Shown: positions 28,693 to 60,033 of the stretch, in pieces
Position numbering within the stretch: the stretch's first letter is position 1
How the letters are laid out: each line of letters begins with the position of its first letter
Assembly: GCA_945868845.1 (NCBI GenBank)
Contig: CAMBMS010000005.1
Coordinates: forward strand, 62,001 to 126,000
Source of the DNA: Asaia bogorensis
GTDB lineage: Bacteria > Pseudomonadota > Alphaproteobacteria > Acetobacterales > Acetobacteraceae
Direction: 5' to 3'
DNA: 64,000 nucleotides
Translations under genes and position numbers: made by a program
The notes under the pieces: model-generated
Databases searched by the model: none
What the model saw: the letters and a program-made list of their open reading frames with translations, nothing else
Told to the model about the DNA's origin: nothing

Positions 28693-28821
28693 AGGCCTGT
28701 ATGAAAGTCCGGCACCTGCCCGCACCCTCACCCGGCCACCCGCAGCAGTGTATGCTGGTTGGGTGGTCAGGTGGGGCTGCGGGACTGGTGCCGGACTTTG
28801 TCTCTAACCAAGGAGCGCCCC

Positions 28822-47161: not shown

Positions 47162-49912
47162 ATGTTCGCCCGCTTCGCCCGCGCCATCTTTGGCACCAGC
47201 AACGACCGTGTGCTCAAGGCATATCAGCACCGGGTGCCGCAGATCAATGCCCTGGAACCGACCATGCAGGCACTTTCCGACGCCGAGTTGGCGGGCAAGA
47301 CGGAGTCCTTCCGCACCCGCCTGACCGCCGGCGCGACCCTGAACGAGATCCTGCCGGAAGCCTTCGCCGTAGTGCGCGAGGCCTCCGTACGCACCCTCGG
47401 TCAGCGCCATTTCGACGTACAAATGATCGGCGGCATGGTGCTGCACGATGGCAAGATCGCAGAAATGAAAACGGGCGAGGGCAAGACCCTGGTCGCCACT
47501 CTGGCGGTCTACCTGAACGCGCTAGCGGGCAAGGGGGTACATGTCGTCACCGTCAACGACTATCTGGCGCAGCGCGACGCGGACTGGATGGGTCAGATCT
47601 ACAAGTTTCTCGGCATGTCCGTGGGTGTGATCGTGCATGGCCTGGAAGACGACCAGCGCCGCGGCCAGTACTCCGCCGACATCACCTATGGCACCAACAA
47701 CGAGTTCGGCTTCGACTATCTGCGCGACAACATGAAATACCGGCTGGAGGACATGGTCCAGCGTGATTTCTGCTTCGCCATCGTCGACGAGGTGGACTCG
47801 ATCCTGATAGACGAGGCGCGCACGCCGCTGATCATATCTGGCCCGGCCGAGGATTCTTCCGCCCTCTATATGCGCGTCGATGAAGTGGTGCGGGAATTCG
47901 TGAAAGATCCGTCCGTCTACGAGAAGGACGAGAAATTCAAGACCGTGTCGATGACCGAGGAAGGCTCGCAGCGCGTGGAAGACATGCTACGCACGGTCGG
48001 CATCATCACCGAGGGAAATCTCTACGATATTTTCAACGTCTCCGTCCTGCATCACGTGCACCAATCGGTGCGCGCGCACACCTTGTTCGCTCGCGATGTC
48101 GATTACATCGTCCGTCAGGATAAGGTGGTACTGATCGACGAATTCACTGGCCGCATGATGGAAGGCCGCCGCTATTCCGAGGGCCTACACCAGGCGCTGG
48201 AGGCGAAGGAAGGCGTGACGGTGCAGGCGGAAAACCAGACACTCGCCTCCATCACCTTCCAGAATTACTTCCGCCTGTTTCCGAAGCTTGCCGGCATGAC
48301 CGGAACGGCAATAACGGAAGCGGACGAATTCGCCGAAACTTACAAACTGGAGGTGGTGGAGGTTCCCACCAATGTCAATGTCACCCGTAATGACGAGGAT
48401 GACGAGGTTTATCGCAGCGCGACAGAGAAATACGAGGCGCTGGCGCTGCTAATCGAGGATAGCCGCAAGCGCGGCCAGCCGGTTCTGGTGGGCACGACAT
48501 CGATCGAGAAAAGCGAAACCCTGAGCGATATCCTGAAGCGTAAAAAAGTGCCGCATGCAGTTCTGAATGCGCGCTTCCATGAGCAGGAAGCAGAGATTGT
48601 CGCCCAGGCTGGCGCGCCTGGCGCCATCACCATCGCCACCAACATGGCCGGTCGCGGCACCGATATTAAACTTGGCGGCAACCTGGAAATGCAGTTGCAC
48701 AAGGCACTTTTCGACATCACCGATGAAAGCCTGCGCGCGGTGCGCGAGACCGAGATACGCGATGAGATCGCCGTCGCGCATCAGAAAGTAAAAGACGCCG
48801 GCGGGCTGTTCGTCATCGGCACGGAACGCCACGAATCCCGACGCATCGACAACCAGCTACGCGGCCGTTCCGGCCGGCAGGGTGATCCCGGGCGCTCCCG
48901 CTTCTTCCTGTCTCTGGAAGATGATCTGATGCGCATTTTCGGCTCAGACCGCATGGGCGGGATGCTGGCGCGACTGGGGCTGAAGGATGGCGAGGCGATC
49001 GTGCATCCCTGGATCAACAAGGCGCTGGAGAAGGCGCAGAAAAAAGTCGAGACGCGCAATTTCGACATGCGCAAAAACGTACTGCGCTATGACGACGTGA
49101 TGAACGACCAGCGCAAAGAGGTCTACACCCAGCGCAAGGAGCTCATGAAGGCCGACGATGTCACCGAAACCGTGGCAGCCATGCGCGACGAAATCGTCCA
49201 TAACTTGGTGGCCCTGCGCATTCCCGAAAAGGCCTTCGCCGAGCAATGGCAGCTGCCGGAACTGGCCGAGGATGCACGCCGTATCCTTAACCTCGATCTT
49301 CCCATCGAATCCTGGGGTCGCGAGGAAGGTATCGACGAAGAGCAGATCTGCGAACGCATCACCCGGGCCGGTGATTCCATGATGGCGGCGAAAGCAGCCA
49401 ATATTGGCCCCGAACTGATGCGCTTCGTAGAAAGATCCCTGCTTATCCAGGTGATGGACCAAGTGTGGAAGGAGCATCTGCTGGATCTGGACCATCTGCG
49501 CCAGGGCATCAGCCTCCGCGCCTATGGCCAACGCGATCCGCTTAACGAATATAAAAGTGAAGCCTTCACCCTGTTCAACGCCATGCTAAACGAGATGAAG
49601 GAACGGGTGACCAGCCTGCTCGCGCGCGTGGAACTCAATCCCAACCAGCCGACCGGACCAATGTTCGATCGCCCCGATCAAGCGATGTTCGAGCAGCACC
49701 CGGAACCAGAATCCCTGCTCGCCGGCTCGCCGGATGGAGAGGTGATGGAAATGAGTGCCGGGCTGCAGCCGATGGTAGTAACCGCCCAGCCATTGCGTAG
49801 CCAGGTGGTAAACTTCGACGACCCGAGCACCTGGCGTAATACCGGGCGCAACGCACCCTGCCCCTGCGGATCGGGACGAAAATTTAAGCAATGTCATGGT
49901 AAACTGGCCTGA
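47162..49912 (+). CDS. secA: Preprotein translocase ATPase SecA
   Basis: 916 residues, full length. Walker A is at residues 102-109 (MKTGEGKT), Walker B is in [20 protein letters not shown], and the motif-VI region reads [20 protein letters not shown]. The preprotein-binding, HSD and HWD regions are intact. The C-terminal zinc tail for SecB binding is [16 protein letters not shown]. It drives protein export through SecYEG. Preceded by a 200-nt divergent promoter region. Confidence 0.96.
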
Positions 49913-49932
49913 ATGGGGATGCGCCGCGTTGG

Positions 49933-50484
49933 GTGGCATCCGGCATAGGCTTTGTCGATCACCCGGTTCCCGACCTGAATCTGCTATGGACGGCTTGCTT
50001 CGATGCGCCTGAACATTTGCGCACCTTGGCCGGCAATAGGGCGATCAACGCGGCAGAAAGGCTCGATCTGCGGCACTTTATCAAGCAGGGCTGGCCGGTC
50101 TTGCGCAATGCGATCGAACCGGGGCTGATCGATCAATTCGTCAACGATACCCGCGCCCATCAGAAATATCCTAGTGAATTCCTGACAACCAAACATCGCC
50201 AGGGACAGTAGCGGATGAATTTTGCCGTCGATGACCAGCAAGCCTATACGCGGGGGCTGGAACAGACCCACGCCGAACGCGGCCGCGCCTATCGGAAATT
50301 CATGGCGAAGAAGGGCCATGCGTTTTTCTAGGCTGCCGATCTGGTATATCGCAGCCATCCGCACAGCCTGCCGAAAGACACCGCGCACCTGTCCTGCGTC
50401 ATGCATTATCGCCCGGCCATGACATCCCAGCTTTGGTTCCGCCACAACCTGGACGAGCACCATATTGCGGCCCACGGGCGCTAG
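49933..50484 (+). pseudogene. Phytanoyl-CoA dioxygenase-like gene remnant
   Basis: The first part reads LDLRHFIKQGWPVLRNAIEP and GLIDQFVNDT, the N-terminal helix of PhyH-like oxygenases, ending at TAG 50209-50211. In another frame from 50216, YTRGLEQTHAERGRAYRKFM and AKKGHAFF lead to TAG 50329-50331, then AADLVYRSHPHSLPKDTAHL and SCVMHYRP. The latter matches the family segment around the distal His (ADLVHGG-SP). The HxD iron motif is deleted. Two stops, a frameshift and a deletion show a dead gene. 50485-50625 contains nothing else clear. Confidence 0.6.
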
Positions 50485-50625
50485 GGGTCATATGTCAGCC
50501 TGCATTATAAATGACCAAAACCTGCGAGCACAGCCCCCGGAATCCCCCCTGGCCGATTAAGGAAAGGTTGTTGGTGGGTTCAGTGCGTGTCTAGAATTGG
50601 GAACGAAAATACGGAGGATCCCCGG

Positions 50626-51009
50626 ATGAGTGATGCGCCCGCCCGCCCCGCCTTTTCGCCCGCCCGCGTGCTGCCGTTGCCGGGCGGGGCTAAACTGATC
50701 TTCTGCTCGGGCGTAACCGCGCGTGGCTCCGCGGCCGAAGGCGGCACAGTGGAGGCGCAGACGGAGGAATGCCTGGCGCGGCTTGGTCGTGCGCTTGCTG
50801 CCGAGGGTGCGCTATTCTCCGATCTGCTGAAGATCAATACTTACCTCAGCGACATGCGCCATTACGCGGGCTTTGATGCCGTGCGCCGCAAAACCCTGTC
50901 CGTGCTACCGACACCACCGGCTAGCACCTGCGTCGGTGGGGCGCAGTTCACCACCACCACATGCTGTATCGAAATCGAAGGGATCGCGGTGGTGGCCGGG
51001 TCCGGATGA
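50626..51009 (+). CDS. RidA/YjgF-family deaminase
   Basis: 127 residues. The fold is marked by the early FCSGVTARG strand, LGRALAAEGALFSDLLKINT and YLSDMRHYAGFDAVR, where the family has the V-K-x-x-x-Y/F-L pattern. The canonical RidA catalytic Arg before the CIEIEGIAVV strand is not evident: the segment reads QFTTTTCCIEIEG, so it may not be a classical imine deaminase. GGAGG precedes ATG 50626. The stop overlaps the ferredoxin start by 4 nt, making it the first gene of a coupled operon. Confidence 0.8.
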   Translation: MSDAPARPAFSPARVLPLPGGAKLIFCSGVTARGSAAEGGTVEAQTEECLARLGRALAAEGALFSDLLKINTYLSDMRHYAGFDAVRRKTLSVLPTPPASTCVGGAQFTTTTCCIEIEGIAVVAGSG

Positions 51010-51425
51010 GCGCCGCAGAGCGCCATATCGCGCGCCTCCAAGCAGCATCCGCAGCGCTGGCGGATGTCTGCACCGCATGCGGGGCCTGTTATCGTGTCTG
51101 TCCTACAGCTGCGCAGATACCAACACTGGCTGAGGCCCTCGCGGAAAACGTAATGCAGGGCATTCGCGACATTCTTCGCGGTGGCGCGGGAAGCGAGGCC
51201 GCCATCGCTTTTGCTGGGGCCTGCAGCCGCAGCGGCGTTTGCACCGAAGCCTGCCCAGAAAAAATCGATGCGGCGTTCCTGATGCGGATCGCCTCCTTGC
51301 ACGTGCGTGGCGCATTGGGCGATGCGCCGCGCGTAAGCATGATGGCGGATCCAGGCTGGTCCGCACGAGTAAAAGCCTTTGCCCGACTGACCATGACCGA
51401 AGAGGAACAGGCGAAATGGCTGTGA
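51006..51425 (+). CDS. HdrC/GlpC-like dicluster 4Fe-4S protein
   Basis: 139 residues with two cluster-binding motifs: CTACGACYRVCP near residue 22 and CSRSGVCTEACP near residue 73. This spacing is that of the small electron-transfer subunit in HdrC or the N-terminal half of GlpC and GlcF. It overlaps RidA by 4 nt and the CCG-protein gene by 10 nt. The pair corresponds to a GlcF-type protein split in two. It likely carries electrons to or from the CCG partner. Confidence 0.84.
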   Translation: MSAAERHIARLQAASAALADVCTACGACYRVCPTAAQIPTLAEALAENVMQGIRDILRGGAGSEAAIAFAGACSRSGVCTEACPEKIDAAFLMRIASLHVRGALGDAPRVSMMADPGWSARVKAFARLTMTEEEQAKWL

Positions 51426-52261
51426 ACCCCGATACACGCGCGACCTTCTGGTATGGCTGCAACATGGCCCGTCATGGCGAGATCATTCGCCTGTGCACGC
51501 AAATCCTCGCAGCGGTTGGTGTGGATGCGGCGCCGGCCGGTGGGCCGGGGTATTGCTGCGGCTCCCCGCAGGAAAAAACCGCACGCATTGCCGCCGGCAT
51601 GGCGGAACGCACGGTAGAAAAATTCAACGACGCGGGGCGCGATCACGTGATTACCTGGTGTCCATCCTGCCATATGAACATGGACGATTTTATGGCCCCG
51701 GTGACCGAGGCAGCGTTCGAGACACAGCACATCACCGAATTACTACATGCACGACGCGAACGCCTGCGCCCGTTTCTGACCCAGCCCGTATCGGCGCGCG
51801 TTCTGGTGCATGCGCATCATGGGTTTAATGGCCGAGTGCCGGTAAATAAGGATGTGCCGGACTTACTGCGTATGATCCCTGCCATCACGGTTCTGGATCA
51901 CGCGTTGCGCGTGCCCGGCCATATGTGCAGCGCGCTGGCCAGCATTCCGGGCGGGCTGCCGGCGGCGCATCGCAATACCCTAGCAGCTATGGCTGAAATA
52001 GGCGCGGATACGCTGACCACCGTGTTTCATTCCTGCCACCGCGAGGCCGTGGCGCTGGAACGCGGGCGCAATATTCGGGTGGTGAACTGGATCCACCTAC
52101 TCGCGCAATCTATGGGCCTTGCACATGAGGATGAATACAAACTATGGCGCAATGCCGACGACCCGCGCGCCGTACTGGGGGAAGGCCGCATCGCCGCGCT
52201 TGGCGAAACGACGTTCGTGCGGCTGGTAGAACCGGAATTGCGAAAGCCGTCCGTGGTATAA
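51416..52261 (+). CDS. HdrB-like CCG-domain Fe-S oxidoreductase
   Basis: 281 residues. Cysteine-rich CCG modules are visible: FWYGCNMARHG and GPGYCCGSPQE with TWCPSCHMNM in the first half. The second repeat is weaker, with HMCSALASIPGG and FHSCHREAVA instead of a full CCG. Such subunits hold a noncubane or 4Fe-4S cluster that handles disulfide or hydroxyacid chemistry (HdrB, LutA, GlcF). Start at ATG 51416 lies inside the end of the ferredoxin gene. Its true substrate is unknown. Confidence 0.82.
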   Translation: MAVNPDTRATFWYGCNMARHGEIIRLCTQILAAVGVDAAPAGGPGYCCGSPQEKTARIAAGMAERTVEKFNDAGRDHVITWCPSCHMNMDDFMAPVTEAAFETQHITELLHARRERLRPFLTQPVSARVLVHAHHGFNGRVPVNKDVPDLLRMIPAITVLDHALRVPGHMCSALASIPGGLPAAHRNTLAAMAEIGADTLTTVFHSCHREAVALERGRNIRVVNWIHLLAQSMGLAHEDEYKLWRNADDPRAVLGEGRIAALGETTFVRLVEPELRKPSVV

Positions 52262-52363
52262 GCCACGCAGTGCGCGTGGCAGGGGAAGACTTGCCATCCT
52301 GTAACCTCGGTATCACAGTAACGGCCCGAATAGCTTCAGCCAAAATCAAGAGGAACCGCCCGG

Positions 52364-53419
52364 ATGCACCTGTTCAAGCAGAACGCCGTGAAGGGTGTCG
52401 AATCCACGGCCAACCAGATCCCTGTCATCGATTACGGCCCGTATTTCGCTGGCGTTCCAGGGGCGCTAGAAAGGATCGCAGCGGAAATAAAATATGCTAG
52501 CGAGAATATCGGCTTCTTCTACGCGCTGCACCACGGCATTCCCGAAAGCACGATCGATGCCGCCTTCGCTGCGTCGGAGCGGTTTCATGCGCTGCCGGAC
52601 GCAGAAAAACGAACCCTCAGCCTGAACGAGAATAACATTGGTTATCTGGCGCCCAACACCTCCGTGCAGGCAGCGTCGACCGTGCACAAGGCGACGCGGC
52701 CAAATTTCAACGAAAGTTTCTTCATCAGCCATGATCGCGGGGAGGATCACCCCGATGTGCTTGCGGGTATTCCGCTGCGTGGTCGCAATAAATGGCCGGA
52801 CAGCCTACCCGATATCCGCGCGCCGATGATGGATTATGTCCATGCCATGGATAATCTCTGCAACCGCATGCTGCCGCCTTTCGCGGTGGCCTTGGGGATG
52901 CCGGCACAAACCTTCGATCCGCTATTCACCAACGAAGCCCATGTCACCTGCCGCTTCCTCCATTATCCGCCACAGGATCCGACGGAAGAGAATTTATTCG
53001 GCCAGGCACCGCATACGGATAACAGTTTTATGACCGCGCTGGCGCGCACCGGTGTGCCGGGCCTGGCGGTGCGGCTGCCCTCGGGCGAATGGTTTCCACC
53101 GCCGATCATTCCTGGTACTTTCCTGATCAATCTCGGTAACATGATGCGGCGTTTTTCTAATGATCAGTTTCTTGCCACGCCGCATGGCGTACTGAATGAA
53201 AGTGGCAAGGATCGCTACTCTATCGCCTATTTCCATAGCCCCAATCCAACCGCCACCATCTCCCCCTTACCGAGCTGCGTGAGAGCCGAAAATCCCCCCC
53301 GCTATGAACCGACGATCTATCGTGACCTAATCATGGCGTTTTTCCGGGCCAATTATTTCCACCAGAAGGGTCACCGTTCCGATGCCGCGGCGCGGGTTGG
53401 CGATCCCGTGATGCCCTGA
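52364..53419 (+). CDS. Isopenicillin N synthase-like 2-oxoglutarate/Fe(II) oxygenase
   Basis: 351 residues. IPVIDYGPYFAG and GFFYALHHGIP are the DIOX-N and family N-terminal blocks. The iron motif HxD is in QAPHTDNSFMTAL, the distal His in FLATPHGVLN, and the R-x-S in KDRYSIAYFHSP. It sits 102 nt after the HdrB-like gene and 29 nt before an MFS gene. The family oxidises diverse small molecules and does not imply antibiotic synthesis. With RidA and Fe-S partners it suggests breakdown of a nitrogenous compound. Confidence 0.87.
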   Translation: MHLFKQNAVKGVESTANQIPVIDYGPYFAGVPGALERIAAEIKYASENIGFFYALHHGIPESTIDAAFAASERFHALPDAEKRTLSLNENNIGYLAPNTSVQAASTVHKATRPNFNESFFISHDRGEDHPDVLAGIPLRGRNKWPDSLPDIRAPMMDYVHAMDNLCNRMLPPFAVALGMPAQTFDPLFTNEAHVTCRFLHYPPQDPTEENLFGQAPHTDNSFMTALARTGVPGLAVRLPSGEWFPPPIIPGTFLINLGNMMRRFSNDQFLATPHGVLNESGKDRYSIAYFHSPNPTATISPLPSCVRAENPPRYEPTIYRDLIMAFFRANYFHQKGHRSDAAARVGDPVMP

Positions 53420-53448
53420 GCGCGCCGCCTAGCCCGACCTGGGCGGCA

Positions 53449-54627
53449 TTGCGCGAAGTGCCGTTCGCCCCGCTCGGGGTCACGCTCGCCATGCAGGCTT
53501 TGGCGACGATGGCGCTCTATTCGGTGCCGACCGTCGCGCCCGCCATGGCGCGCGATCTGGATGTGCCGGGGGAACTGAGCGGGACGTTTATCGCCTGTGC
53601 CTATGGGTTCGGCATTTTCTCGGCCTTAGCGTCTCCGGGGTTCGTGCATCGTTTCGGCGCGGTGCGCGCGGTGCAGCTGGTGATGGCCTGCACGGCGGCG
53701 ATGCTGCTGGCCTCGGCCATAGGCAGTATTTTTTCCCTTTTCATGGCGACGATGCTGCTGGGGGTCGGCTATGGCGCGGCGGCTCCGGCTAGCACGCATC
53801 TGCTAGCCCCGCGCACGCCGCGGCTGGTGTTCAACATGGTGATGTCGCTACGCCAGATCGGCGTGCCACTAGGCGGCGTGCTTGCGGCGCTGATCCTACC
53901 GCCGGTAGTGGTGCGCTTCGGCTGGCAAGCGGCGCTGCTGGCGGAGGTGCCGCTGTTACTGGCGATGATCCTGTTCTGCGAAATCCCGCGCCGGCGTTGG
54001 GATGATGGCCCGCCTTCGTCGCGCCCGATCCTGGGGCGGGAGCTGCTGGTGCCGTTTCAGCTGCTGCGCCAGGATCGACGTATTCTGACGCTCTCCGTCG
54101 CCAGTTTCCTGTTCTCCGGCATGTCCTTGTGTTTTGTGGCGTTTACCACGATGCAACTGACGACCCGGGCCGGGTTTGACTTGGTGGATGCGGGGCGCAT
54201 GCTGGCCGTCTATCAGATCTCTGGCACGATCAGTCGGCCGATCTGGGGATGGATGGCGGATCGCTTCCTGACGCCGTCGCACACCTTGGCGGTGCATGGC
54301 TTTGGCATGGCGGCGGCGGCGCTGCTAGCCGGGCAGATCGACACGGGATGGAGCGGGGGTGCGGTGTTCGCCCTGGCGATTTTTGCGGGGATCACAGCGG
54401 GCGGTTATACGGGCGTAGCCTATGCCGAATTCGTCAATCTTGGCGGCACGCGTCGCACGGAGGCGACCGGGCTCGGCACGGCGATGATGTTTTCTGGCGT
54501 GCTGATCATGCCGCCGATTTTTGGCGTGCTCGTCACCTTGACGGACGGCTATGCGATTTCATTCGCGATGATGGCGTTGCTGTCCGCGGTGGGGGCAACC
54601 TTGTTGTGCCGCCGCCCCTCCGTATAA
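53449..54627 (+). CDS. MFS transporter
   Basis: 392 residues with about 12 hydrophobic segments. The signature after TM2 is relaxed (SPGFVHRFGAVRAVQL) and GWMADRFL is in the second half. Start is taken at TTG 53449 because no ATG or GTG lies between the upstream stop and the first helix. It closes the RidA/Fe-S/oxygenase operon and probably imports its substrate. A terminator-like hairpin just downstream points the other way. Confidence 0.84.
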   Translation: MREVPFAPLGVTLAMQALATMALYSVPTVAPAMARDLDVPGELSGTFIACAYGFGIFSALASPGFVHRFGAVRAVQLVMACTAAMLLASAIGSIFSLFMATMLLGVGYGAAAPASTHLLAPRTPRLVFNMVMSLRQIGVPLGGVLAALILPPVVVRFGWQAALLAEVPLLLAMILFCEIPRRRWDDGPPSSRPILGRELLVPFQLLRQDRRILTLSVASFLFSGMSLCFVAFTTMQLTTRAGFDLVDAGRMLAVYQISGTISRPIWGWMADRFLTPSHTLAVHGFGMAAAALLAGQIDTGWSGGAVFALAIFAGITAGGYTGVAYAEFVNLGGTRRTEATGLGTAMMFSGVLIMPPIFGVLVTLTDGYAISFAMMALLSAVGATLLCRRPSV

Positions 54628-55272: not shown

Positions 55273-56847
55273 ATGCACTATACGATCGCACCGCACCGCA
55301 CCCAGCATTGGGACCTGAGCAAGCCATCCGCCAAGGGGCGGCGCGGCATGGTGGTGGCGCAGGCGAAATCCGCCGCCGAGGCCGGGGTAGCCGTGCTGGA
55401 CGATGGGGGCAACGCGGTGGACGCCGCCGTGGCCACGGCGCTGGCTCTGGCCACGGTGGAGCCATGGAATTCCGGCCTCGGCGGAATCGGTTTTGCCCTA
55501 GTACATCGCACCGGCGAAGCACGGGCCGATGTGGTAGATTTCGGGCCGATGGCGCCGCGCGCGCTGAACCCCCATAGTTTCAAACTCACCGGACGGCACA
55601 CACCCAACCAGTTCAACTGGCCGGAGGTGGAAGGCGATTCCAATATCCATGGGCCGCTCTCCCCAGCCATTCCTGCCGCCGTGGCGGGCTATGAGTTGAT
55701 GCATCGCCGTTGGGGCAAACTACCGGTCCGCGATGTAATAGCCCCGGCCGTTGCGCTGGCGCGGCGGGGGCTGCCAGCGGACTGGTTCACCACCTTAAAA
55801 ATCTCCAACGCGGCAGCGACCTTGCGGTGCTATCCGGAAAGCGCGCGCATCTATCTGCCGGATGGATTACCGCCGGCGGCACCCTATCAGGGTGTGCCTG
55901 GCTTCCTGCCCCAGGGCCAGTTGGCGGAAACGATGGCGCGGCTGCAACAGGCTGGGCTGCGTGATTTCTATGAGGGCGAGATTGCAGCCGCGATCGCCGC
56001 CGATATCGCAGGGATGGGCGGTGCGCTGTCAGCTTCGGATCTTGCCCAGTGCCAGGCGCGCACGATGAAGGCGACCGAGATCGTATGGCGCGGGCGCAGC
56101 CTGCAAATGGCCGGCGGGCTGACGGCATCGCCCACGATGGCCCGCGTATTAAGGCAACTGGCCTCAGCGCGGTTCGGCGCGGCACCGGATGCCGGCTGGT
56201 TCGTCTCGTTGGCCCGCGCCATGAAGCAGGCCTACGCTGAACGACTCGCCGGGCTGGGTGAGGCCGACCCGTTGGCGGCGGAGACCTGCACCACGCACCT
56301 AAGTGTGTGCGACGCGGAGGGCAACATGGTGGCGATGACCACCACGTTGATGTCCTCCATGGGTAGCCGGCTGGTGCTGCCGGGTTCCGGCGTGCTGATG
56401 AACAACGGCATGATCTGGTTTGACCCGCGCCCCGGTCAGCCCAATTCCATCGCGCCGGGCAAGCGGCCACTGACCAATATGTCGCCGATTATTCTGCAGG
56501 AGGGCGGGCGGCCATGGCTGGCGGCAGGGGCGTCCGGCGGGCGACGGATCATGGCCTCCGTCTTGCAGGTAATGAGTTTTGTTGCCGATTTCGCCATGAC
56601 ACCGGAGGAAGCGGCGCATTATCCGCGGATAGATGTATCCTCGCCCGACGCAGTGAGCGCCGATGCGCGCCTACCGGAAAATGTACTGGCGGCGCTGGCG
56701 GCAGATGGACCGACGGAGGTGGTGGAGCATTCCATACTACCGGTAAATTTCGCCTGCCCCAACATGATTGTACAAAACGCCGATGGCATGCGCATCGGCA
56801 TCAGCGATGTGGTATCTCCCTGGTCCGCCGCCGTCGCGCAAAAGTAA
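55273..56847 (+). CDS. Gamma-glutamyltransferase family protein
   Basis: 524 residues, Ntn-hydrolase of the GGT family. The precursor self-cleaves before Thr340 in ETCTTHLSVCDAEGN, giving large and small subunits. GNAVDAAVATALALATVEPW and the SGLGGIGFALVH loop contain the gamma-glutamyl-binding region. There is no signal peptide, unlike classical periplasmic GGT, so it may be a cytosolic GGT-like acylase. The MBL hydrolase starts 24 nt later. The gene is intact although flanked by pseudogenes on both sides of the cluster. Confidence 0.88.
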   Translation: MHYTIAPHRTQHWDLSKPSAKGRRGMVVAQAKSAAEAGVAVLDDGGNAVDAAVATALALATVEPWNSGLGGIGFALVHRTGEARADVVDFGPMAPRALNPHSFKLTGRHTPNQFNWPEVEGDSNIHGPLSPAIPAAVAGYELMHRRWGKLPVRDVIAPAVALARRGLPADWFTTLKISNAAATLRCYPESARIYLPDGLPPAAPYQGVPGFLPQGQLAETMARLQQAGLRDFYEGEIAAAIAADIAGMGGALSASDLAQCQARTMKATEIVWRGRSLQMAGGLTASPTMARVLRQLASARFGAAPDAGWFVSLARAMKQAYAERLAGLGEADPLAAETCTTHLSVCDAEGNMVAMTTTLMSSMGSRLVLPGSGVLMNNGMIWFDPRPGQPNSIAPGKRPLTNMSPIILQEGGRPWLAAGASGGRRIMASVLQVMSFVADFAMTPEEAAHYPRIDVSSPDAVSADARLPENVLAALAADGPTEVVEHSILPVNFACPNMIVQNADGMRIGISDVVSPWSAAVAQK

Positions 56848-56871
56848 TTACGTAAATTTACGGAGAAAATA

Positions 56872-57744
56872 ATGAAACCGACACAACAAATCTCCGGCGT
56901 TTACCATCGTAGAGTCGGAGATATCGTCGTCTCCTGTATTTCCGACGGTTATTTGGACGGCGTGATGAGCGTTGTGCAGGGTCTGGCGCCCGAGGAAAGC
57001 GCCCGCATTCTGGCGCAGAGCTACCGCCCGGCGCGGAGAACTTCTGTCAATTGCTTCATCATCCATTCCGCCGAGCGCGTGGCGTTGGTGGATAATGGCA
57101 GTGGCAACAAGATGCAGGTAAGTTGTGGCAAGCTGATGGCCAATCTCGCGGCGGCAGGCATCGCGGCCAAGGATGTAGATACGTTGATGCAGACCCATAT
57201 GCATCCCGACCATTCCAACGGATTAACCGACGATGCCGGACAGGCGGTATTTCCGAACGCCGAGATCGTGCTGCATGAAGACGAAATCAAGCACTGGCAC
57301 GACGATGGCGCGATGGCGCGCGTGGACCAAGCCTCGCGATTGCGCAATTTCCAGCATGCACGCGAGCAGTTTGCGCCATACCGGAACCGCATGAAGCCGT
57401 TCAATAAAAGCCAGGAAGTCTTTCCCGGCGTAACGGCGATGCCGATCCCCGGCCATACACCGGGCCATACAGGGTACATGATCGCCTCCGGCGGCGAGGC
57501 ACTGTTTATCTGGGGCGATATTATTCACGTACCGGAGATTCAGGTGCCGTTCCCGACCGTATCGATGGCGTTCGATGTCGATGCGGATCAGGCGCGGGCG
57601 ACGCGGTCGCGCGTGTTCGATATGGTGGCGACGGACAAATTACTGATCGGCGGCATGCATGTCCATTTCCCCGGCCTGGCACGTCTGGCGCGGCGAGAAA
57701 CCGGGTACCATCTGTTGAATGAGCCCTGGGTGCATTATTTTTGA
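56872..57744 (+). CDS. MBL-fold metallo-hydrolase
   Basis: 290 residues. The zinc motif is THMHPDHSNG (H-x-H-x-D-H), followed by the HTPGHTGYMI strand His and the MWGD-like IWGDIIHV Asp, then the final His in GGMHVHFPG. This group resembles lactonase-like hydrolases such as AiiA relatives. It lies 24 nt after the GGT-like gene and 9 nt before the amidase remnant, so the three once formed a hydrolase operon. Confidence 0.86.
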   Translation: MKPTQQISGVYHRRVGDIVVSCISDGYLDGVMSVVQGLAPEESARILAQSYRPARRTSVNCFIIHSAERVALVDNGSGNKMQVSCGKLMANLAAAGIAAKDVDTLMQTHMHPDHSNGLTDDAGQAVFPNAEIVLHEDEIKHWHDDGAMARVDQASRLRNFQHAREQFAPYRNRMKPFNKSQEVFPGVTAMPIPGHTPGHTGYMIASGGEALFIWGDIIHVPEIQVPFPTVSMAFDVDADQARATRSRVFDMVATDKLLIGGMHVHFPGLARLARRETGYHLLNEPWVHYF

Positions 57745-57753
57745 GACGTCGGT

Positions 57754-58799
57754 ATGATCGTTACCGATCCAGCCCTATTGTCCGCTGAGGAATTGGCCAA
57801 CCTTTATGCGACGCGCGCGTTACCGCCGGTAGAGGCCTTGCAAGCCGTCACACTGCGGATCGCGCGGCTTAACCCGGGGTTGAACGCGTTCATGGCGATG
57901 AACACGCATGCCATGGTGGTGGCCGGAAAGAGTGCGACGCGCTGGGTGGCCGGGTGGCCCTTGGGGTCGCCGGCTGGCGTGCCCAGCACAGTGAGGGGCC
58001 TAGTCGATGTCGCAAGCCTTCCAACGCGGCAGGGCAACTGGGCGAGCGATCCTTTGCCGGTGATCCAGGATGCGCCCGCCATGGTGGGGCTGAAGGCACC
58101 GAGAGCGGCGGGGCCGATAGTTCAGACTGTCCGGGACTCGGCGTTGGTGCTCTCCGCCATAGCGCGACACGACCTACGCGATCCGCATCTGCCTGCCCGA
58201 CGATCAGCACGGCTGCCGGGACGGGATCATAGACGGGGTGGCGGAGCTACGCGTGGTGATTCTGGCGCGCCCGGGGTTCGATCCGCCGGTGGATACAAAG
58301 AGCATCGCGGCGATGGAGCAGGCGGTGGCGTTGCTGGCCGCGGCCGGAGCCTATGCAGAGGAAGCCAGTTCGGATTTGCCCGATACAAGGCTAATTTTCC
58401 CCGTGGCTGGTCCGTGGCCTTGGCCCGGCTGGTGAAAACATTCCTGGCCGAAAAGCGGGCCGCGCTCAATCCTGGGCTACTGGCAGTGGCGGCGCCGGAC
58501 GGCGATGTCAGCTCGATGGAACTGCTGGATGCAGATGCGTTGCGCTTGCAGGCAGGCAGGGCAAGCGATGGCGCGATTTCATCAGCGCTACGATCTGGTG
58601 TCCTGCCCCACCGTGCCGAACCTGCCGATGCTAGCCGATGCGCCGCCGACTGACCCGATACAGGCGCCATGGATGCAATAGACGCCCTGGATTTTTACCT
58701 TTAACTTAACCCGTCAACCGGCGATCACGGTGCCGATGGGGCTGTGGGAGAACGGGCTGCCACGACCCGCACAGATCGCCGCGGCGTAATTCCACGATA
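57754..58799 (+). pseudogene. Amidase-signature family gene, heavily degraded
   Basis: The start LLSAEELANLYATRALPPVE is a normal amidase N-terminus, and GLVDVASLPTRQGNWASDPL is the region before the catalytic Lys. A large deletion then removes the Ser-cisSer-Lys core. GPIVQTVRDSALVLSAIARH continues in frame. Later parts are spread over frames: GVAELRVVILARPGFDPPVD, then ARLVKTFLAEKRAALNPGLL, then RYDLVSCPTVPNLPMLADAP with a TAG at WMQ-TPW, and FTFNLTRQPAITVPMGLWEN. At least three frameshifts, one stop and a core deletion; not functional. Confidence 0.82.
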
Positions 58800-58860
58800 A
58801 TCTGGTGTTTTGCGCCAGGCGCGCGATAAAGATGCAACAAGTTTTTTTGATGGTGACACT

Positions 58861-60033
58861 ATGAGAACGGAAGCGGCGATTACCGGATGGTTGGCCACGC
58901 AGCGTGACGCGATGGTGACGATGCTGCGCGAAATGGTGGACATCGACTCCGGCTCGTACAATAAGGCAGGCATCGATGCCGTAGGCGCGGTGGTGCAGAA
59001 ATTTTTCGCCGCTCACGATGTTCCTGTGGAAATCATACGCCAACAGAAGCACGGCGATACGCTACGCGCCACCCCGAAATGGGACGGCCCGCAAGGTAAC
59101 GCCGGTGGTAATATTGTCCTCATGGGCCATCGCGACACTGTGTTTCCCAATGGCGAGGCAGAACGTCGACCTTTTACCATTCGCGATGGCATCGCCTATG
59201 GCCCAGGCGTGGCCGATATGAAGGCAGGACTGGTAATGAATTGTTTCATCCTGGTCGCTTTCGCGAAATTCGGTGGCGCGCCGGCGCCGTTGGTGGGCCT
59301 CTTTACCGGTGATGAGGAAATCGGCTCCCCCGAGGGCCGCGCGGTGATCGAGACGGAGGCACGACGCGCGCGGGTGGTGTTCAACTCCGAACCTGGGCGA
59401 GTGTCCGGCAATGTAGTGACGGGGCGCAAGGGCGGCGTGTTCTCCGCCTTTCGTATCACCGGCAAGGCAGCGCATTCGGGTGGTGCGTTTACCGAAGGTA
59501 TTTCTGCCATTGAGGAATTGGCGCGGAAAATTCAGGCGATCCACGCACTGACTAATCTGGATCGTGGTATCACGCTGAATGTCGGTCTGGTCAGTGGCGG
59601 GCAGAGCGTGAACACTGTGGCGCCTTGGGCGGAAGCACAGATCGATCTGCGCTACGTTCACCCGGAAGATCGCGGTGATGTCATGGCGCGGGTGGGGACT
59701 ATTATCGAGCGCGCCTTCGTGCCGGGCACGCGCACCGAATGGCATGTGCGCGGCGAGTTCGTGCCACTGACGCAAACACCGGCGGCAAAAAAACTGTTCG
59801 ACATCTATGTCGATGCCGCCGCAGCGACCGGGTTCATCACGGGCGGGGAATTTTCCGGCGGTTGCGCCGATTCCGGGTTCGCTGCCGCGCTCGGCGCGCC
59901 GACGATTTGCGCCGTCGGCCCGGTGGGTGGGATGGCGCACAGCCCGGAGGAATTCATGCGTATTGATAGCTTGGTACCGCGCGCGCAGGCATGCGCTGGC
60001 GCGATATTGCGGCTGCAACAAGCCGGTTTATAG
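58861..60033 (+). CDS. M20-family metallopeptidase/carboxypeptidase
   Basis: 390 residues. Zinc and catalytic residues are His90 and Asp92 (MGHRDTVFPN), Asp119 (GVADMKAG) and Glu152/Glu153 (TGDEEIGS), with a dimerisation domain from about 185-290 and the final His in MAHSPEEFM. The group includes glutamate carboxypeptidase (carboxypeptidase G2-like). ATG 58861 is used; an in-frame ATG 17 codons upstream is possible. Last intact gene of the GGT/MBL/amidase group, so peptide or N-acyl-glutamate cleavage is plausible. Confidence 0.86.
   Translation: MRTEAAITGWLATQRDAMVTMLREMVDIDSGSYNKAGIDAVGAVVQKFFAAHDVPVEIIRQQKHGDTLRATPKWDGPQGNAGGNIVLMGHRDTVFPNGEAERRPFTIRDGIAYGPGVADMKAGLVMNCFILVAFAKFGGAPAPLVGLFTGDEEIGSPEGRAVIETEARRARVVFNSEPGRVSGNVVTGRKGGVFSAFRITGKAAHSGGAFTEGISAIEELARKIQAIHALTNLDRGITLNVGLVSGGQSVNTVAPWAEAQIDLRYVHPEDRGDVMARVGTIIERAFVPGTRTEWHVRGEFVPLTQTPAAKKLFDIYVDAAAATGFITGGEFSGGCADSGFAAALGAPTICAVGPVGGMAHSPEEFMRIDSLVPRAQACAGAILRLQQAGL

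Follow-up and report, generated by a model that had tools for sequence, protein, structure and literature searches.

The window analysed here is a 64,000-nucleotide stretch of the Asaia bogorensis genome (C5:62001-126000 in a 3.2 Mb genome of 49 contigs). It carries five consecutive genes, encoding a RidA-family protein, an HdrC-like and an HdrB-like iron–sulfur protein, a 2-oxoglutarate oxygenase and a major facilitator superfamily (MFS) transporter (Table 1). A first-pass annotation had named these families and their common direction and had reported overlaps of 4 nt and 10 nt among the first three genes; all five are indeed open plus-strand frames, Pfam agrees with the assignments, and the frame coordinates give the same overlaps. 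The five genes are two modules: a RidA–HdrC–HdrB unit (50626-52261), which is a new variant arrangement of known kinds of protein recurring in one bacterial family, and a separate neighbouring pair formed by the oxygenase and MFS genes, rather than a general five-gene system.

Table 1 Genes of the three-gene unit and the adjoining pair, in window coordinates
Gene product	Coordinates	Strand	Features
RidA-family protein	50626..51009	+	127 aa; Pfam PF01042; Ser at the canonical catalytic Arg position (PPASTCVGG)
HdrC-like 4Fe-4S dicluster protein	51006..51425	+	139 aa; Pfam Fer4_10/Fer4_17
HdrB-like protein	51416..52261	+	281 aa; Pfam CCG, 40 bits, one stretch
IPNS/EFE-like 2-oxoglutarate oxygenase	52364..53419	+	Pfam DIOX_N and 2OG-FeII_Oxy; solved relatives; outside the conserved unit
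MFS transporter	53449..54627	+	Pfam MFS_1; longest frame, from a TTG; neighbour, outside the conserved unit

Recurrence of the unit and its separation from the oxygenase

At E 1e-40 or better, 67 of 397 Acetobacteraceae genomes carry HdrB relatives. Those in 62 genomes are close (at least 51% identity) and are counted here as HdrB-positive, with 5 distant ones (34–36%) excluded, and 335 genomes of the family count as HdrB-negative. In a phylum-wide draw, an HdrB relative occurs in 1 of 398 genomes, which is the window's own. Gene neighbourhoods were compared across 80 loci, the best 80 of 107 HdrB relatives from a scan of named genomes, with flanks of at most 10 kb that are shorter in many cases. 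An HdrB tree (quick method, SH-aLRT support only, midpoint root) places 70 of these loci on a branch with the window, comprising Acetobacteraceae and unplaced alphaproteobacterial metagenome-assembled genomes (MAGs), and the remaining 10 belong to Beta-proteobacteria, Rhizobiales and one unplaced proteobacterium. The window's own row groups with L048 (SH-aLRT 89, not starred).

The HdrC gene lies directly upstream of the HdrB gene in 78 of the 80 loci, and a contig ends at this point in the other 2. The RidA gene directly precedes the HdrC gene in 25 loci and lies about 10 kb away in 4 more; among the 73 loci that have at least 500 nt upstream, it occupies that position in 23. A genome search with one query at E 1e-20 found RidA proteins of the window's type (called Ser-type below) in 26 of 62 HdrB-positive genomes and in 0 of the 62 HdrB-negative genomes tested as controls, some of which carry a distant fused HdrC–HdrB relative. 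By their listed places, most of the 26 genes (20) reside less than 2 kb from HdrB; 4 share its contig at a distance of about 10 kb, and 2 lie near the start of another contig. Thus, the tie between the iron–sulfur pair and RidA that had been proposed for this locus recurs in other genomes.

The tie to the oxygenase, which had been proposed together with it, fails to recur: neither the oxygenase nor the MFS transporter has a match in any of the 80 HdrB loci (E 1e-8). The oxygenase ortholog group has members (at least 59% identity) in 15 of 397 genomes, and HdrB is carried by 3 of these 15 versus 59 of the 382 others; therefore there is no oxygenase–HdrB link. In the two HdrB-positive oxygenase genomes besides the window's own, the oxygenase and HdrB genes lie on different contigs. 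Furthermore, a sister genome (85% complete) carries adjoining oxygenase and MFS genes (90% and 88% identity) without RidA–HdrCB before them. Gene order is therefore conserved in other searched genomes for the first three genes and not for the set of five, and the description of all five as one operon is not supported as a general unit.

The two genes of the second module are themselves directly adjoined only in the window's genus. Among 13 oxygenase-carrying genomes outside it, 8 encode an MFS relative (50–60% identity), in each case on a contig different from that of the oxygenase, and a search at E 1e-60 found none in the other 5. Against such a restriction to the genus, two of these five (G395 and G419) carry a weak MFS match (30–31%) that shares the strand of the oxygenase and lies some 3.6 kb away. 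The oxygenase itself contains the domains expected of an IPNS-like 2-oxoglutarate enzyme (DIOX_N, 78.7 bits; 2OG-FeII_Oxy, 65.5 bits). Its orthologs adjoin a gene for a thiamine diphosphate-dependent enzyme in 5 of 14 other loci (L161, L162, L163, L166 and L168 among those listed), the one checked being acetolactate-synthase-like, and in 4 of 14 they stand next to a CoxG-like gene, an identification made by eye. Upstream of the oxygenase in the sister genome, L157:3466-3551 resembles window positions 28706-28797 in both directions and is perhaps a mobile-element end.

The first-pass annotation had also described the genes as intact between decayed neighbours. This holds downstream, where an amidase frame (57754-58653) is judged broken because it covers only positions 5-116 of NF004815 and 188-217 of PF01425; it is not supported upstream, where 49903-50510 has no significant Pfam match and no family. 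The amidase belongs to a same-strand run of hydrolase genes (55273-60033) that also encodes gamma-glutamyltranspeptidase-like, AidB-like lactonase (metallo-beta-lactamase) and M20 glutamate-carboxypeptidase-like proteins. Queries with the first two matched nothing in the 80 HdrB loci, and the M20 query matched in 4. A plasmid search gave no match.

Residue patterns of the RidA protein and the iron–sulfur pair

The RidA protein is a member of the Pfam Ribonuc_L-PSP family (57 bits versus a cut-off of 27.3), and it scores far below the NCBIfam cut-off for TIGR00004 (36.1 versus 106.25 bits). At the position of the catalytic residue Arg105 of TdcF, each of the 26 rows in the alignment (the window plus 25 loci) carries serine, the window's PPASTCVGG standing where canonical RidA has P-A-R-S. 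This bears out the earlier remark that the canonical arginine is missing. The Ser-type protein is a known minority form, since, according to a 2015 BMC Genomics paper, serine occupies this position in about 10% of RidA proteins (PMC4433059). Neither a RidA protein with an Hdr-like pair nor the cluster is described in the titles and abstract openings of the matches listed from the open-licence PMC literature. In one proteobacterial MAG (L124:3229-7265), HdrCB is preceded at a distance of a few kb by a further RidA-family gene, one resembling UbiX (named by eye) and one for a UbiD decarboxylase.

The HdrC-like protein has a normal first 4Fe-4S motif, and its second reads C-x2-S-x2-C-x3-C, in which the middle cysteine is missing and is replaced by Ser or Thr in the printed alignment rows. 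Its seven cysteines are kept in 75–78 of 79 rows, the remainder being gaps except for one Ser. Its score against the LutB model TIGR00273 is 19.8 bits (cut-off 444.8). In the HdrB-like protein, the first CCG domain is complete: every one of the 81 rows has C47, C48, C82 and C85, and 80 have C15, the other being gapped there. The two complete CCG motifs of a heterodisulfide reductase HdrB are not present, as the second is degenerate and reduced to H134, C171, H205 and C207, which are likewise kept in all 81 rows. The protein falls below the TIGR03288 equivalog cut-off (20.4 versus 345.15 bits). Its predicted model (pLDDT 86.7) nevertheless has an HdrB-type fold, matching solved HdrB (8rvu_B; Z 20.1, rmsd 2.8, 235 residues aligned), LutA (Z 17.9) and mycobacterial EtfD (Z 15.9) across most of residues 6-246. 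We infer that the split HdrC/HdrB pair is an iron–sulfur electron carrier of the GlcF/LutA/EtfD/Hdr superfamily.

In the four loci inspected (L013:8581-9873, L014:8312-9595, L016:10697-12022 and L017:8422-9750), the distant HdrB relatives (28–37% identity), which are kept out of the family counts, are fused HdrC–HdrB proteins about 430 aa long, with the same replacement of Cys by Ser in the second 4Fe-4S motif.

Such iron–sulfur pairs are normally tied to a flavoprotein dehydrogenase or to heterodisulfide chemistry, as the first-pass annotation had remarked. In the relatives, four of the five FAD-oxidase_C proteins of the window's genome, used as queries at E 1e-15, detected no GlcD-type flavoprotein near HdrB in the 80 loci. 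All five are encoded elsewhere in that genome, so a flavoprotein partner could act in trans. On our reading of the neighbouring frames, one of the five genes sits in a GlcDEF-like set and others look like orphans.

Catabolic genes linked to the unit in relatives

In relatives, the unit is often preceded on the same strand by a threonine-synthase-like gene for a pyridoxal phosphate (PLP)-dependent enzyme, an M81/MlrC gene and a second PLP gene, and an ArgE-like M20 gene lies nearby pointing away. Matches anywhere in the locus at E 1e-8 were found in 40 of the 80 loci for the second PLP gene, 34 for the first (a count that includes a few weak paralogs), 32 for M20 and 29 for M81, with many loci cut by short flanks. 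A gene for the C4-dicarboxylate transporter DctA (above the NCBIfam cut-off) stands between the second PLP gene and RidA/HdrC in 8 loci. This context points to catabolism of a nitrogen-containing compound, as had been suggested from the window alone. RidA genes often cluster with genes for PLP-dependent enzymes such as threonine dehydratase, as a passage in PMC4433059 notes.

The best solved match of the second PLP gene product is D-threo-3-hydroxyaspartate dehydratase (E 5e-77), followed by D-serine dehydratase (3e-50). All 40 loci with this gene carry a PNHxC motif (37 by pattern, 3 in printed ends), which we take to be the metal site of the dehydratase; in the copy from the window's genome it lines up with the Delftia enzyme's PNHAC. 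The closest solved sequence and the HxC motif together predict D-threo-3-hydroxyaspartate dehydratase activity for this linked gene, which lies outside the window, and an identity as D-serine dehydratase is possible on sequence grounds. According to a passage in PMC8071972, D-threo- and L-erythro-hydroxyaspartate are both substrates of the Delftia enzyme. D-threonine aldolase and BhcC were set aside as identities on E-values (about 1e-22 versus 5e-77), although BhcC is the sole NCBIfam match (110 bits versus a cut-off of 690).

The dehydratase (E 1e-80) is present in 61 of 62 HdrB-positive genomes versus 108 of 335 HdrB-negative ones, and lies less than 6 kb from HdrB in 40 of the 62. Among the 62 control genomes used for the RidA comparison, 58 carry it and 4 do not. 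In the window's own genome, an M81–dehydratase pair resides on contig C1, separate from the unit, and the best match of this copy is the same enzyme (E 1e-76).

HpcH/HpaI aldolase genes also occur less than 4 kb from HdrB in 11 of the 80 loci (L084, L086, L087, L090, L095, L099, L117, L119, L123, L108 and L110), from Acetobacteraceae and Beta-proteobacteria; they are a further pointer to substrates of hydroxy-acid or aldol type.

Proposed function and comparison with known systems

We tentatively propose, at somewhat less than even confidence, that RidA–HdrC–HdrB is one unit that serves as an add-on to the catabolism of beta-hydroxy-alpha-amino acids, the 3-hydroxyaspartate or D-serine type being the most likely. 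If this model is correct, the M81 and M20 hydrolases of relatives would release the amino acid, DctA could import a dicarboxylate, and the metal-dependent PLP dehydratase would eliminate water to yield an enamine/imine. The Ser-type RidA would be a dedicated partner of HdrCB, in the simplest case clearing this product as an imine/enamine (or related) hydrolase, and HdrCB would pass electrons for an associated oxidation or reduction. A bolder version, which we regard as very unlikely, makes the unit a flavin-free imine oxidoreductase module: RidA would hand the hydroxyaspartate-derived imine/enamine to a single non-cubane HdrB cluster, capped by His205, that oxidizes or reduces it directly, with electrons leaving through the second cluster of HdrC.

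Several observations weigh against the proposed role in beta-hydroxy-amino acid catabolism. It is doubtful whether the Ser form hydrolyses imines, because, according to a passage in PMC4433059, replacing the catalytic Arg with Ala nearly abolishes imine hydrolysis by RidA. A Ser-type RidA is missing from 36 of the 62 HdrB-positive genomes. In 22 of the 62, no dehydratase is shown less than 6 kb from HdrB: 18 have it elsewhere (with contig breaks in some cases), 1 (88% complete) has none, and the place in 3 is unlisted. The co-occurrence counts for the dehydratase and RidA ignore kinship, and genus g126 contains the dehydratase in both HdrB-positive and HdrB-negative genomes. Lastly, the 10 loci on the separate Beta-proteobacteria/Rhizobiales branch, as the midpoint root divides the tree, have HdrCB without a Ser-type RidA or dehydratase nearby.

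A rival explanation makes HdrCB a general split GlcF-like electron-transfer subunit whose flavoprotein dehydrogenase (of GlcD/D-2-hydroxyacid, FMN or GMC type, or an electron-transfer flavoprotein, ETF) lies elsewhere or varies by lineage, with RidA and the dehydratase as optional passengers. The five FAD-oxidase_C genes of the window's genome, the FMN and GMC oxidoreductases encoded less than 4 kb from HdrB in 5 and 6 of the 80 loci, and the structural similarity to EtfD, an acceptor of electrons from ETF, are consistent with such a carrier; however, the four FAD-oxidase_C queries came up empty in the loci and Ser-type RidA was not found in the 62 genomes without HdrCB, and we consider this explanation possible but on the unlikely side. 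Alternatively, HdrCB might perform Hdr-like thiol/disulfide chemistry at the first CCG cluster, for example on an imine thiol adduct or a cysteine-derived substrate. We find this distinctly unlikely: the invariant first-site cysteines and the closeness of the model to solved HdrB fit the idea, but Hdr uses a pair of CCG sites, and here the second keeps only two cysteines in every row; capping of the retained cluster by H205, as by a histidine in EtfD, could make it non-catalytic. Least probable of all, and remote in our judgement, is the original proposal that the five genes form one pathway operon. They do share a strand, with gaps of 102 nt (HdrB to oxygenase) and 29 nt (oxygenase to MFS), and a consensus scan of the first gap detected no promoter-like or terminator-like site, which says little; against this, the five genes stand together in no other searched genome.

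The role in beta-hydroxy-amino acid catabolism that we favour would provide context for two poorly understood classes, namely RidA proteins lacking the catalytic arginine and Hdr/GlcF-like iron–sulfur pairs without an adjoining flavoprotein. It would also make beta-hydroxy-amino acids, probably hydroxyaspartates, a candidate nutrient in Acetobacteraceae such as Roseicella, Siccirubricoccus and Roseococcus. The analysis also sets a recurring three-gene unit in the window apart from its two neighbours.

Compared with the RidA subfamily of the Rid (YjgF/YER057c/UK114) proteins, the window's RidA is alike in Pfam family and size and differs in its Ser for Arg, its score below TIGR00004 and its tie to an iron–sulfur pair. 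In GlcF of the glycolate oxidase GlcDEF, a CCG part comes after a 4Fe-4S dicluster part. HdrC and HdrB keep this order, but they are split into two genes, carry Ser in the second 4Fe-4S motif, have a degenerate second CCG domain and, unlike GlcDEF, have no GlcD found beside them in the 80 loci with the four queries. The HdrB-like protein shares the HdrB-type fold with heterodisulfide reductase HdrB, LutA and EtfD and has a complete first CCG motif, whereas its identity to HdrB is 16–17% and it has a single complete CCG site. EtfD has clusters at both sites, and a passage in PMC13083937 indicates that its homologs FadF and DgcB appear without the first-site cysteines. The window's HdrB would be the mirror image of these homologs, with the first site kept and the second lost, and H205 could therefore play the mirror-image role of the EtfD histidine, capping the cluster that remains. 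Finally, the linked PLP gene is closest, among solved structures, to the dehydratase of Delftia sp. HT23, and differs from it in setting, as it sits beside M81, RidA and HdrCB.

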